A DNA stretch of 64,000 bases from Selenomonas sp. AB3002 (GTDB lineage: Bacteria; Bacillota; Negativicutes; Selenomonadales; Selenomonadaceae): assembly GCF_000702545.1 (NCBI RefSeq), contig NZ_JNIO01000002.1:372001-436000 (forward strand). Direction: 5' to 3'. Of the stretch, positions 8,629 through 56,659 are shown piece after piece. Positions within the stretch are counted from its first letter, which is position 1; each line of letters starts with the position of its first letter. Made by a program: the position numbers and the translations under genes. The notes below the pieces were generated by a model. It made no database searches and was not told where the DNA came from. It saw nothing but the letters and a program-made list of their open reading frames with translations.

Positions 8629-8713
8629 CAAGTACCTCCTTCTCTCCAAGTTAATGTTATACTCATGAGCAGTGAATTTTTACATTTAGAAAAACTACGC
8701 TCCTAGCAGTTTT

Positions 8714-8905
8714 TACCTCCACCGCTTGCGGGGGGCGCTTAAGCGCGGGAGCCCGGTGGGCTCCCTGGAGGGGGACCGGCGGAGCCGGTGGAAGGGGGGG
8801 AATCGAAGCCGTCACGTTTCCTTCGCCCCTTCCACCACCTTCGGCCTAAAATATGCCACTGGCATATTTTAACCTTCCCCGTTTCACGGGGCAGGTAAGG
8901 CCTAC
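8714..8905. repeat. compound palindromic repeat region (two facing copies of an interspersed element)
   Basis: The region between rpoN and the hexokinase gene is packed with perfect dyads: GCGCTTAAGCGC (8735-8746), GGGAGCCC-GGT-GGGCTCCC (8747-8765), ACCGGC-GGA-GCCGGT (8775-8789) and AAAATATGCC-ACT-GGCATATTTT (8848-8870). The segment 8826-8905 begins with CCCCTTCCACC and ends with ACGGGGCAGGTAAGGCCTAC. Both ends recur at 39944-40004 inside a glycosyltransferase gene. The segment 8714-8798 carries the CCCCTTCCACC-GG start in the opposite direction. This makes it a mobile or propagated intergenic palindromic element, not a coding sequence. Its function is unknown; it could also act as an RNA hairpin at transcript ends. 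Confidence 0.75.
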
Positions 8906-36396: not shown

Positions 36397-36424
36397 CTCT
36401 CAATATCTTCCCTATTAAAAGTCC

Positions 36425-37741
36425 TCAGCAGCCATCCGCTACAATGGTTCTTCTCCCCATAGACACATAAGTCAAGCCCGCAGTTTCTGCCTCATCCAAA
36501 CCATAGCAATTTCTTCCATCTAACACTATAGGCCGCTTCATATTAATCTTAAATCCTTCTAAGGGATATTCTTTGATGTTCTTCCAGTCAGTAAGGATCA
36601 AACATAAATCCGCATCCTTGATAGCCGTATCTATGTCATTGCAATACTGAACCTGAGTAGGAAAATACTCTTTAAAATTTTCCATTCCAACAGGGTCATA
36701 AACTTTCACAACGGCCCCATCTTCTAAAAGCAAAGGTATATTCACAAGAGAAGGTGCCCCCCTCAAATCAGCAGTCTCCGGCTTGAAGGTGAGCCCCAGC
36801 ACTGCCACGGTAAGCCCTTCCAAATCCTCATAGTATTTATGAGCCTTGCGGATAAGCTTCAGCTTCTGATGGTCGTTGACCTCAATGGCCGCCTTGACGA
36901 TCTTCAATTCCTGCTCATGATAGTCCGACAACCAGTGCAATGCTTTCGTATCCTTTGGGAAGCATGACCCACCATAGCCAATCCCAGCCTTCAGGAACTT
37001 GCTTCCGATGCGCTTGTCATAGCCCATACCCTTGGCCACATCCTCGATATCCGCCCCTATTTCCTCACAGAGGTTGGCAATCTCGTTGATATAGCTAATC
37101 TTCAGAGCCAGGAAATCATTGGAGGCGTACTTGATCATCTCCGCGCTGCGGCGGTTGGTGATGAGCTTCGGTGCAGCGAAGTCCTTGTAGAGTTCCGTGA
37201 GCTTTGCCTTGGCATAGTCATCCTCCACACCGATGACAATCCTCGAAGCATGGAGAGTATCATGGACTGCCGTGCCCTGGGCCAGGAATTCCGGGTTGGA
37301 GGCCACATGGATGGGAGCCGCCCCCTCTGGCCTGTTATCTTTGATTATCTTCTCTATGCGCTCATTGGTGCCGATGGGGACGGTGGACTTCACTACCACC
37401 ACGCATTCCCTTTCCGCTGTTTCTGCTATCTGCATGGCCACGGCATAGACATAGTTCAGATTGGCAGAGCCATCCCTCTTCTCCGGGGTGCCCACGCCGA
37501 TGAAGATGATTTCTGCATCCTTGTAGGCGCTGGCATAGTCTGTAGTATATGAGAGGCGCTCCTTGTTCTTTTCCATCAAGGCATCCAGGTCTTTTTCGTA
37601 GATCAGGGCCTTGCCGTATCGGTTCAAACTGTCTATTATCTTTTTGTCCACGTCCACGCAGGTGACATTGTGGCCGTGCTCGGCCAGGCAGACGGCAGTA
37701 ACAAAACCCACGTAGCCGGTGCCGGCGATGGCAATTTTCAT
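36425..37741 (-). CDS. ugd: UDP-glucose 6-dehydrogenase
   Basis: A 438-residue enzyme oxidising UDP-glucose to UDP-glucuronate with two NAD+. N-terminal MKIAIAGTGYVGFVTAVCLAEHG is the NAD loop; the catalytic Cys is in GIGYGGSCFPKDTKALHW (about 256-273). The central helix and C-terminal domain (VLGLTFKPETADLRGAPSL) are standard. I use the ATG at 37741 (AAGGAGCAATCATA upstream), since the family begins with MKIA; an open frame continues 15 codons upstream. Its product could be a glycan component or a precursor of other acidic sugars. It stands 28 bases before the 294-residue gene. Confidence 0.95.
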   Translation of the reverse strand: MKIAIAGTGYVGFVTAVCLAEHGHNVTCVDVDKKIIDSLNRYGKALIYEKDLDALMEKNKERLSYTTDYASAYKDAEIIFIGVGTPEKRDGSANLNYVYAVAMQIAETAERECVVVVKSTVPIGTNERIEKIIKDNRPEGAAPIHVASNPEFLAQGTAVHDTLHASRIVIGVEDDYAKAKLTELYKDFAAPKLITNRRSAEMIKYASNDFLALKISYINEIANLCEEIGADIEDVAKGMGYDKRIGSKFLKAGIGYGGSCFPKDTKALHWLSDYHEQELKIVKAAIEVNDHQKLKLIRKAHKYYEDLEGLTVAVLGLTFKPETADLRGAPSLVNIPLLLEDGAVVKVYDPVGMENFKEYFPTQVQYCNDIDTAIKDADLCLILTDWKNIKEYPLEGFKINMKRPIVLDGRNCYGLDEAETAGLTYVSMGRRTIVADGC

Positions 37742-37829
37742 TATGATTGCTCCTTTGAAGGGACAAGCGATGGGAACCTCATCCACCGCCTTCCTCAGAG
37801 GGGAAGGCTTTTTGTTTTGCCTTGCTCTT

Positions 37830-39221
37830 TTATTTTCTCCCCAATATTGGGAAGTAGTAATTACTGAAATAGTCTTCTATGGGATAGTATTTGCCGTCCC
37901 AGAGGATTTTTTCTTCCGAGATGCCTTTGGCTTTCAGCTCGGATTTTATTTCTTCTGCTACTAATTTGTTCACTACGGTTATCAGCAGGTAGTCATAATC
38001 CCACTTGGTTAGATTATCTATGGGTTTTGCGGGGATGCCCTGCATGCCGGTCTTGCCTGCCTGCTTGTCTACTATGCCCACCAACTCTATATAGGGAAAG
38101 CGCAGAGCTTGTTCGTAGAAACCTTTGCCTACTTCTCCGGCTCCGTAGAGAACAACTTTATCCCCCTGCTTGAACAAGTGCCAAGGAAACATGTAGTTCA
38201 TGCGGAGACCCCATTCTGCTACATCTCCTACTTGCTTCTTGTGGCTGGCGTGGAAAAAATGCTCAGCGAAATAAGCATGCTGCCCAAAGATGTTCTTGAA
38301 TGCCTGATGCACTGGCTCGATGTCTCCTGCAACTGTGCCATCTGGCAGATAGCAGTCCTGAGCAAAGAAAGAGTCTGTGTCTGCAATGGCGAAATTTCGC
38401 ACTTTGTCTTGCAATTCGGGGTGCTCCTGCAGGTAGGGAATGCCTGCCATATAGCGTTCAAGGCTTTCTATCTTCCTCACCATGCAGTGCACCAGCTTGG
38501 CAAGGAACTTGCCGTCACGCTTGCTGCGGGTCACTGCCGAGGCGGGCCTGCGGTAGATGTATACACAATCAGGTATCCTTACAAAGGTGTGGGCATGGAA
38601 AACGCAACGGAACATGAAGATGCCATCCTGTCCCGGCACGATATCCTCTTCAAACCAGATATCATGCTCTGCCAGAAAATCCCTGCGGAAAAGATTGCTC
38701 CATACAACCGTGGAAATACCTTTGTCTGCCCAGGCCTGCACCCTGCCAGCTTTCTCTGAACACAGCAGCTGGATTTCAGTGCCAAGAGGAAGCTTGTCCA
38801 GCCGCAGCTTGCGGAATTCGTCCTCCGTCCTGATATGCTCCACATTCCCATTGGGTAAGAAGCAATCCGGGGAATGAACCACCTCTGCCTGATAGGCCTC
38901 TGCCGCCTTGTACAGTTCTTCCAGGGCATAGGGCATATAGAGGTCATCGCTGTCCAGGAACGCGATGTATTTGCCCTTGGATGCCTTCAGTCCGGTGTTC
39001 CTGGCGGTGCCTACGGTGCCATTCTGCTCATGGTGGATGATTGTTACCTTGCTGTTGTTCCCGTACAGCTTCCGACATAGAGCCATACTGCCATCAGTGG
39101 AGCAGTCATCTACGATGATGATTTCAAAGTCCTGAAACGTTTGTGACAGGACGCTGTCCACGCACTCCTGCAGATAAGCAGATGTGTTGTAAACTGGTAT
39201 GATAACTGAAATCTCCGGCAT
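37830..39221 (-). CDS. GT2 glycosyltransferase with C-terminal Rossmann-like domain
   Basis: A 463-residue protein. Residues 1-250 are a GT2 (GT-A) domain: MPEISVIIPVYNTSAYLQEC, IIVDDCSTDGS, and AFLDSDDLYMPYALEEL with the D-x-D metal site. Residues 350-445 form a second domain opening GDKVVLYGAGEVGKGFYEQA, then GIVDKQAGKTGMQGIPA and YLLITVVNK. This is the same YGAG-type module found fused to other proteins of the cluster. The ATG at 39221 has GAAGGGAATTTT in front; an upstream open frame overlaps the end of the DUF4422 gene and is not needed. It probably transfers a hexose or similar residue to the growing glycan. Confidence 0.85.
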   Translation of the reverse strand: MPEISVIIPVYNTSAYLQECVDSVLSQTFQDFEIIIVDDCSTDGSMALCRKLYGNNSKVTIIHHEQNGTVGTARNTGLKASKGKYIAFLDSDDLYMPYALEELYKAAEAYQAEVVHSPDCFLPNGNVEHIRTEDEFRKLRLDKLPLGTEIQLLCSEKAGRVQAWADKGISTVVWSNLFRRDFLAEHDIWFEEDIVPGQDGIFMFRCVFHAHTFVRIPDCVYIYRRPASAVTRSKRDGKFLAKLVHCMVRKIESLERYMAGIPYLQEHPELQDKVRNFAIADTDSFFAQDCYLPDGTVAGDIEPVHQAFKNIFGQHAYFAEHFFHASHKKQVGDVAEWGLRMNYMFPWHLFKQGDKVVLYGAGEVGKGFYEQALRFPYIELVGIVDKQAGKTGMQGIPAKPIDNLTKWDYDYLLITVVNKLVAEEIKSELKAKGISEEKILWDGKYYPIEDYFSNYYFPILGRK

Positions 39222-39231
39222 AAAATTCCCT

Positions 39232-40515
39232 TCAAATCTCTTGCAGTAATTCATAATCTATATGCGCTGTCTTCCACTTATCGCGATGATAAGAAAAGTA
39301 CACCGTAGTCAGCAGTTCCCCCACATACCCAAGATATCTGTCCGGACGGAGTATCTCCTCTCGCTTGCAATGCTCCTGCATGCCCTGCAGCACCTTGAAC
39401 ATGAAGCGACAATAATCAAGATAAATATCTCTCTTTGCAATAACCATGTTGTTTGGGAAGTGAACCTGCCCTTCCAGGAATTCCTTGGAAAAATTTGCCA
39501 GCTCAGAATCTTCACGCTCAATCAATCTCAGCATGAGGCTGTAATCCTGCTCGTCCATGGTAGTGACAGGAAGATTGGCGAAATATTTATGGACATTTGG
39601 GAAGGTCAATCTTGGGGTTGTCAGCAGAACATCCACCTTCCCCTCAGCCATTGCTTTCTTTATTTCTTCTGTCAGCACGAAATGACGCCGATAGTGACAA
39701 AGTCCCAGGTATTTGGCCCTGGGAGCTTTCTTCCATAGCCAGTGGGCAACTGTCAATTCGGAATATAGACTGTTATAACCAGAAAGGCTGTCTGCTACCT
39801 CATCGTCATACGCCATTTCCGCTGTGCGGGGGCCATCATAACCTGCTGCGCCGCCCATAACGGGATGGACGTAATCTGGCAGGTTTTCCAGGCTGACTCT
39901 GGCATCTTTTAGGGATGTTGCCATTGCTAAATATAGTCGGCATCCCCCCCCTTCCACCGCTTGCGCGGTCCCCCTTCCCCGTAAACGGGGCAGGTAAGGC
40001 CTACTTGTTACGCTACCATTACTAAATTTACTTACGGTTTGTTGTAAGTTTCTGATGTCCGTTTGTGACAGGGGCACCTGGGTCATAGGGTAGAAGGTGA
40101 ACCTGGCTTCTGGGTGCTCCTTGGGGGAGATTTCCAACATGGAGTAGTCGTGGGAGTTGCGCTTTACTGTCAGGTTGGGGCAGGCCTCACTGATTTCTTT
40201 AATGCCCTGCTCCCCCAGCAGCTGCGTCATGCGGTGGAGGCCGATTATTTCCTTTGGCTCCCTGCCAAATTCTGCCAGCAAGCAAATAACTTCTTCATGA
40301 TATTTTTCCTGCAGAGCCAAGTGTATTTCCGCTTTTGGGAATATCTTTAAAGCGTCTTCTATCTCCAGACAGGGGCGGCCGCAGTATTTTTCTCCCTGAC
40401 CGTTCATCTTCGTGACAGCGAAAGCAGCTATGTCTGCCCCACGCCCCTGCCCCTCCAAATAGCGCGCATATTCTTCGGCAATGAGTCCTCGTCCGTAAAG
40501 TATCAGCTGGCCCAC
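39232..40515 (-). CDS. DUF4422 glycosyltransferase interrupted in frame by a palindromic repeat
   Basis: A 427-residue protein in three parts. Residues 1-95: MGQLILYGRGLIAEEYARYL and following, a YGAG-type nucleotide-binding module. Residues 185-427: a DUF4422 domain, beginning LYLAMATSLKDA, with YNSLYSELTVAHWLWKKAP and YLGLCHYRRHF, a GT-A-like glycosyltransferase family of capsule loci. Between them, at about residues 171-190, lies YLPRLRGRGTAQAVEGG, which is the translation of an interspersed palindromic DNA repeat (39944-40004). The frame remains open, so a protein with an added linker is probably made. The start is GTG at 40515 with AGGGAGCG upstream. Confidence 0.75.
   Translation of the reverse strand: MGQLILYGRGLIAEEYARYLEGQGRGADIAAFAVTKMNGQGEKYCGRPCLEIEDALKIFPKAEIHLALQEKYHEEVICLLAEFGREPKEIIGLHRMTQLLGEQGIKEISEACPNLTVKRNSHDYSMLEISPKEHPEARFTFYPMTQVPLSQTDIRNLQQTVSKFSNGSVTSRPYLPRLRGRGTAQAVEGGGCRLYLAMATSLKDARVSLENLPDYVHPVMGGAAGYDGPRTAEMAYDDEVADSLSGYNSLYSELTVAHWLWKKAPRAKYLGLCHYRRHFVLTEEIKKAMAEGKVDVLLTTPRLTFPNVHKYFANLPVTTMDEQDYSLMLRLIEREDSELANFSKEFLEGQVHFPNNMVIAKRDIYLDYCRFMFKVLQGMQEHCKREEILRPDRYLGYVGELLTTVYFSYHRDKWKTAHIDYELLQEI
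39944..40004 (-). repeat. palindromic repeat inserted in frame in the DUF4422 gene
   Basis: About 61 bases containing CCCCTTCCACCGC and ending ACGGGGCAGGTAAGGCCTAC, with internal dyads ACCGC-TTGC-GCGGT (39956-39969) and CCCCGT-AA-ACGGGG (39977-39990). Its two ends match those of the intergenic element at 8826-8905. In the gene it reads as Y-L-P-R-L-R-G-R-G-T-A-Q-A-V-E-G-G without a stop. Confidence 0.8.
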
Positions 40516-40569
40516 TCATCCACGCTCCCTGCAAATTTTTTCAAACACGAGTTTTCCCTCTACGATTAT

Positions 40570-40586
40570 ATAACGTAATGCGTTAT
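40570..40586. promoter_or_regulatory. candidate operator, ATAACG-TAATG-CGTTAT
   Basis: A 6-bp perfect inverted repeat with a 5-base spacer in the divergent promoter region between the DUF4422 gene and the XRE gene. It is a plausible binding site for the XRE regulator and could couple it to the glycan genes. There is no experimental support. Confidence 0.35.
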
Positions 40587-40681
40587 TATTCAACAAAATC
40601 CACCCTCTTTTCTCAAATATCGTTAGTTTAAGCCGCTGCCAGGTCCTTTTAAGATATAATTCCTCTTAGAGGTGATACATT

Positions 40682-56428: not shown

Positions 56429-56503
56429 GGCGCCTTCGTCAAGTGGTTAAGACACCGCCCTCTCACGGCGGGTTCATGGGTTCGAATCCCATAGGCGTCA
56501 CCA
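56429..56503 (+). tRNA. tRNA-Glu (CUC), copy 1
   Basis: A complete cloverleaf with encoded CCA: acceptor GGCGCCT / AGGCGTC, anticodon stem CCGCC / GGCGG with loop CTCTCAC (anticodon CTC), and T loop TTCGAAT. It begins 53 bases after gltX. Confidence 0.95.
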
Positions 56504-56506
56504 ACT

Positions 56507-56581
56507 GGCTCCTTCGTCAAGTGGTTAAGACACCGCCCTCTCACGGCGGGTTCATGGGTTCGAATCCCATAGGAGTCACCA
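56507..56581 (+). tRNA. tRNA-Glu (CUC), copy 2
   Basis: Identical to copy 1 except for a compensated acceptor pair (GGCTCCT / AGGAGTC). The anticodon is CTC and CCA is encoded. Only three bases separate it from copy 1. Confidence 0.95.
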
Positions 56582-56584
56582 ACC

Positions 56585-56659
56585 GGCGCCTTCGTCAAGT
56601 GGTTAAGACACCGCCCTCTCACGGCGGGTTCATGGGTTCGAATCCCATAGGCGTCACCA
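56585..56659 (+). tRNA. tRNA-Glu (CUC), copy 3
   Basis: Same sequence as copy 1, anticodon CTC, CCA encoded, three bases after copy 2. A terminator follows. Confidence 0.95.

Follow-up and report, generated by a model that had tools for sequence, protein, structure and literature searches.

A palindromic repeat arm in frame in the linker of a DUF4422 gene of Selenomonas sp. AB3002

We found that in Selenomonas sp. AB3002 a modular palindromic repeat, otherwise mostly intergenic, contributes a single arm in frame to the linker of a DUF4422 gene. From the sequences compared, it is highly probable that the arm entered this linker in frame and persists there as a selfish or neutral insertion. The evidence comes from the copy number of the repeat, empty sites in homologues, the open frame across the insert, a second allele in a paralogue and similar in-frame insertions in other genes within the family. 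Coordinates are those of the window, the whole stretch of 64,000 nucleotides that was analysed (Table 1).

Table 1. Repeat copies and host gene in the window
Feature	Position	Strand	Basis
Intergenic arm with extra inner hairpin, half of an inverted pair	8711..8801	minus	R1 45.9 bits, E 3.4e-9; tail 8665-8734 by nhmmer, copy in profile
Other arm of the intergenic pair	8822..8900	plus	R1 35.4 bits, E 1.2e-6; tail to 8944 by nhmmer, copy in profile
DUF4422 gene carrying the insert	39232..40515	minus	427 aa; ORF list
Linker segment aa 162-193 (SKFSNGSVTSRPYLPRLRGRGTAQAVEGGGCR)	39937..40032	minus	Alignment of 12 distinct homologous loci and their lengths
Palindromic arm with two hairpins	39944..39999	plus	Covariance model R1 71.9 bits, E 1.5e-15
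Second hairpin and AT-rich tail	39977..40030	plus	nhmmer E 1.6e-10, profile of 40 copies excluding the window copy

Results

The host gene and its repeat copy

In the encoded protein an N-terminal module is followed by the linker segment and then by DUF4422 (PF14393 at aa 216-409 of 427; 113 bits against a cut-off of 25, E 2.4e-32, Pfam), and the product is probably a surface-polysaccharide glycosyltransferase, an activity that we infer. The linker segment precedes this match and lies where the aligned homologues vary most in length, in agreement with the initial annotation, which had placed the insert at a domain linker. A structure prediction from four sequences (mean pLDDT 49.7) was too poor to read the linker. 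Elsewhere in the window, three tandem tRNA genes with nearly equal scores occupy 56429-56656.

The in-gene copy is a single arm with its tail and not an inverted pair. The covariance model R1 was built for the 57-nt arm from 29 own-genome copies, the window copy included, so that the R1 score of this copy is partly by construction; the nhmmer match comes from a profile that leaves it out (Table 1). The ORF is unbroken through the insert, with only 2 of the 6 frames open across the 82-nt segment, and together with both matches this upholds the in-frame palindromic repeat that had been proposed at 39944-40004. The pattern CCCCGTnnnACGGGGCAGGTnAGGCC, with 3 mismatches allowed, gives 2 matches in the 64-kb window and 0 in 100 shuffles, and the closest genomic copies of the arm in an 83-nt BLAST search are 92% identical over 52-58 nt. 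RNA folding of the inserted segment was no better than that of shuffles (z -0.74; 44 of the 200 shuffles folded as well).

A direct repeat matching at 13 of 15 nt flanks the inserted arm (39920-39940 and 40012-40032); it was equalled or exceeded by 20 of 1984 random comparisons and by 30 of 1719 spaced ones, and could be a local duplication. Because the tail overlaps this repeat of the gene itself, the outer end of the insert past about 40010 is uncertain, and the sequence there may be a duplicated piece of the host gene instead of repeat tail. Among 33 other clusters, flanking direct repeats had mean scores of 6.24 versus a null of 6.36 (19 pairs) and 6.43 versus 6.34 (14 singles), on average not above the null, so that target-site duplication was rejected as a general feature and transposition itself is not supported. 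A Y1 transposase was likewise rejected as the mover, with 0 R1 matches in the stretches of about 3.4 kb round the four Y1_Tnp genes of this genome.

Filled and empty linkers

The alignment comprised 12 distinct homologous DUF4422 loci (L045 is the L086 locus and L046 the L082 locus); partial or distant homologues, of about 34% identity or less (for example in G031), and a fragment on C182 of G004 were omitted. G004 is a fragmented genome of about 320 contigs with 6% contamination. A repeat lies at the linker in five of the loci (the window gene, C8:152560 of the same genome, G002 C46, G004 C83 and G004 C101), with about three sequence types among them. Six have none (C8:344539 of the same genome, G005 C4 and C3, and G004 C260, C274 and C256), and the last, G004 C159, is cut at the linker by a contig end. 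Since homologues without the segment exist, L085, L086 and L089 (G004) among them, the possibility that all orthologues carry it does not hold. R1 does not match the linker of the third own paralogue, C8:344539.

Measured against the shortest linkers, the window gene has 28 extra residues, its C8 paralogue 40, G002 C46 and G004 C101 18 each, and G004 C83 13. The initial annotation had put the insert at about 61 bases and some 20 residues, and both figures are too small: the empty sites give 84 nt (28 codons) within 39937-40032. In G004 C83 the repeat in the same linker scores 20.6 bits with R1 (E 0.005), and G004 C101 (L087) has two repeat-derived segments, one at the linker and one after YDDE within the DUF4422 domain, the latter at 35.1 bits. 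The G002 C46 linker segment recurs, besides its counterpart in G004 C101, at five other near-identical places across three genomes, with 0 for the reversed control. The G002:C46 protein (L082/L046) is likely a fusion, in that the C-terminal third of the DUF4422 protein is replaced and resembles the C-terminus of the neighbouring glycosyltransferase.

Beside the insert, the paralogue at C8:152560-153876 differs from the window gene at 2 of 44 nt, and it carries a different, longer version of the arm (R1 22.3 bits, E 0.0019; nhmmer E 1.4e-7), whose 8-bp inner stem persists despite two double changes when compared with genomic copies. Because the flank is near-identical whereas the arms differ, the insertion probably preceded the divergence of the two genes, the arm having been remodelled later in one of them; separate entries at the same place are less likely. 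The three paralogous polysaccharide cassettes (window 36400-40600; G000:C8:152.5-156.8 kb; G000:C8:344.5-348.7 kb) are mosaics. Over most 150-nt windows of DUF4422 outside the insert, identity between the window and C8:152k is 82-93%; it is 75% in the final one, and the likeness extends to about 39400. Beyond that point C8:152k matches C8:344k at 82-99% until the last two windows, and at 87-99% through the next genes. The switch of identity lies near 39300-39600, away from the repeat at 39937-40032. Both C8 cassettes have the same repeat between their second and third genes, where the model found none in the window cassette.

The repeat family in the genome

Against the 3.67-Mb genome, the 83-nt BLAST search returned 71 matches at E<=10 and R1 gave at least 72 (150 of 2574 candidates scored). 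From 70 places we obtained at least 44 clusters, a count that combines 56 of the 71 BLAST rows (15 16-base self-reverse rows were dropped) with 14 listed model hits and includes two near-identical locus pairs, C6/C7 and C8:2074k/2137k, which may be assembly duplicates. The possibility that the segment has no other genomic copies therefore does not hold. Arms occur in both orientations in 21 of the 44 clusters, forming arm-loop-arm elements with AT-rich tails. Each arm is about 57 nt long with two hairpins; in an alignment of 29 copies both partners change in 2 of 13 pairs, and some arms, read by eye, have an additional hairpin. The element at 8826-8905, which had been offered as the matching intergenic copy, is indeed intergenic and of the same family, but it forms half of a larger inverted pair (about 8711-8905) that carries another hairpin inside, and the closest copies of the in-gene arm lie elsewhere. 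A second subfamily, of the GGCTGACGGATGAGG type, is found at G000:C2:140072 and C8:928661, G002:C30:40816 and C44:18711, and G004:C217:12330, and is the type present in the G002 DUF4422 linker. Adaptation of the element for coding was rejected, the arms averaging 4.34 of 6 open frames versus 4.04 in shuffles (sd 0.16, largest 4.41 of 200), a small excess.

In-gene insertion in this genome is rare and not distributed over many genes: according to ORF maps and to Pfam searches with 19 ORFs located at the other clusters or opposite them, made without a gene caller, only 2 of the 44 clusters lie clearly inside a gene and in frame, both in the DUF4422 gene family. Several possible cases were left uncounted. 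The repeat pair at C2:588808-588943 (L003) extends over the final 12 codons of a GT41-like ORF; at C2:140147, C2:756458 and C2:863117 the repeat reaches into N-terminal ends that precede M18, TIM-barrel and HycI domains, and the genes may in truth start further downstream; and at C2:754261 Pfam does not decide the frame on either strand. Several further frames at clusters have no family match.

In-gene copies in other genomes of the family

Searches with a peptide from the related subfamily matched 33 of 189 family genomes at E<=0.05, and those with the antisense peptide 35 of 189; only stretches with long open frames were read, so these figures support no rate. Two internal cases are firm, in DNA polymerase I and in a permease, both in one other genus (g25). 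The in-frame segment in DNA polymerase I is PPPLGEGDREAVERV in G029 (L136/L169), PPPMGEGDREAVERV in G207 (L152/L170) and an altered, longer form in G209 (L171); it lies upstream of the polymerase domain in 3 of 14 aligned genomes, and the other 11, including the congener G206, are without it. In the permease-like protein L155/L185 (G206:C25:4835-6385), 55 extra in-frame residues encode both arms. These residues are missing from 8 of 8 aligned homologues, and homologues of about 70% identity in G209, G208, G207 and G029 match both flanks with nothing between. A further homologue, L193 (G021), was omitted from the alignment; its matched pieces lie 18 nt apart, so that it too is without the segment. 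The G206 segment matches further places in G206, most of them with stops. The protein has no Pfam name and is a permease by our reading.

Three other possible cases were left uncounted: L137 (G010 C4; 405 aa, without a match in Pfam or NCBIfam), L139 (GmhB-like, repeat N-terminal) and L134 (G002:C30:45654-47057), a TnpB-like protein with a Cas12f1-like TNB domain in which the last 18 codons, directly before the stop, are repeat-derived. By eye, without a gene caller, other long frames through repeats were taken to be antisense to the likely gene or to lie upstream of it, and were discarded, at L114, L115, L116, L119, L125, L128, L135 (SufB-like), L138, L140-L151, L153, L154 and L156-L167. L118, an HflX-like protein, was a chance match.

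Discussion

The most plausible course is that a single arm of the multicopy palindromic repeat entered the DUF4422 linker in frame, before the split of the window gene and its C8:152k paralogue, and that the arm was then remodelled in one of the two. Its mover would be either an enzyme or some process of replication or repair. The insert would persist since it kept the frame and its extra residues are tolerated at a linker, and new linker sequence would have been made in this way; neutrality, linker tolerance and the order of events are what we infer.

That the segment is instead native linker, repeat-like by convergence or composition, is extremely improbable. The linker does vary in all homologues, and a direct repeat within the gene coincides with part of the tail, but the reading is strongly contradicted by copy number and empty sites, and the 92% identity to genomic copies over 52-58 nt, the left-out profile match and the lack of pattern matches in shuffles argue against it as well. 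A role of the hairpins in mRNA or DNA, such as transcript stability or attenuation within the cassette, would agree with the inner stem that the C8 in-gene copy keeps through two double changes and with the both-sided changes in 2 of 13 arm pairs. Yet folding of the window insert does not surpass that of shuffles, and template-switch correction can maintain palindromes without selection; we hold such a role to be quite unlikely.

Somewhat less remote, though still unlikely, is that the linker acts as a functional hot spot at which repeats land or recombine repeatedly, their hairpin modules varying linker length and helping to shuffle domains among surface-polysaccharide glycosyltransferase cassettes. 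Linker repeats of about three sequence types in 5 of 12 loci, the mosaic structure of the three own cassettes and the different C-terminus of L082 speak for it; against it, identity between cassettes switches near 39300-39600 and not at the repeat, the repeat types may descend from one insertion, and a tolerant linker would gather insertions anyway. A shorter and a longer allele of the linker repeat do coexist in this genome (window and C8:152k), but there is only a slim chance that different repeat types enter the same linker, swap hairpin modules in frame and tune linker length while cassettes recombine. Entry of one arm followed by neutral or selfish persistence is the reading that we prefer.

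Among known systems, Rickettsia palindromic elements (RPEs) and the coding palindromes of Wolbachia are alike in being multicopy palindromes, both intergenic and in frame within genes, which add tens of residues and are seen against shorter homologues. RPEs belong to another phylum and occur in many genes, whereas here one gene family is affected in the own genome (2 of 44 clusters clearly internal); the single arm of about 84 nt is below the RPE length of 105-146 bp quoted in PMC2229807; and the reading frame differs between cases here, with RGRGTAQAVEGG in the window and PSPLGKGDREAVDE in relatives. GTAG- and CGTC-tagged REPs, as described in PMC3733652, also form opposite-orientation pairs that are mostly intergenic and in some cases in frame within genes. 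Many intragenic REPs are reported there in replication and repair genes, which the DNA polymerase I case recalls, and linkers and loops are suggested to be tolerant. Unlike tagged REPs, the arms here have two or more hairpins and an AT-rich tail; CGTC is absent from both strands of 39943-40024, and GTAG is confined to the minus strand, where it lies within the tail instead of at a hairpin base. Some other arm variants contain CCGTCAGCC. REPs and REPINs mobilised by RAYTs share the pairing of hairpin units in opposite orientation (21 of 44 clusters here), but no repeat flanks the four own Y1_Tnp genes. MITEs with translated frames (ERIC, Correia, RU elements; PMC2229807, PMC10969869) are likewise small non-autonomous repeats fused in frame; here no target-site duplication above the null (33 clusters) and no parent transposase were found.

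The initial annotation had regarded such elements as well known from Rickettsia but not, to its knowledge, from this group. Our literature search returned no report of such a repeat for Selenomonas or Negativicutes, which is weak evidence given its poor coverage of subscription journals, and the main text of PMC3733652 mentions no Firmicutes, Clostridi-, Selenomonas or Veillonella; in-gene palindromes are, however, documented well beyond Rickettsia in PMC10969869, PMC3733652 and PMC2229807. The phenomenon is of a known kind, in an apparently new repeat family and host group. By analogy, the window repeat works like RPEs and intragenic REPs, and by the features tested it is neither an RPE nor a tagged REP.

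The present cases bring Selenomonas and its family into the range of in-frame palindromic insertion. They include conserved proteins, DNA polymerase I and a permease, in which filled and empty sites can be paired, and two alternative insert alleles in the paralogues of one genome. This provides a system outside Rickettsia-type bacteria for asking how selfish repeats turn into protein sequence.
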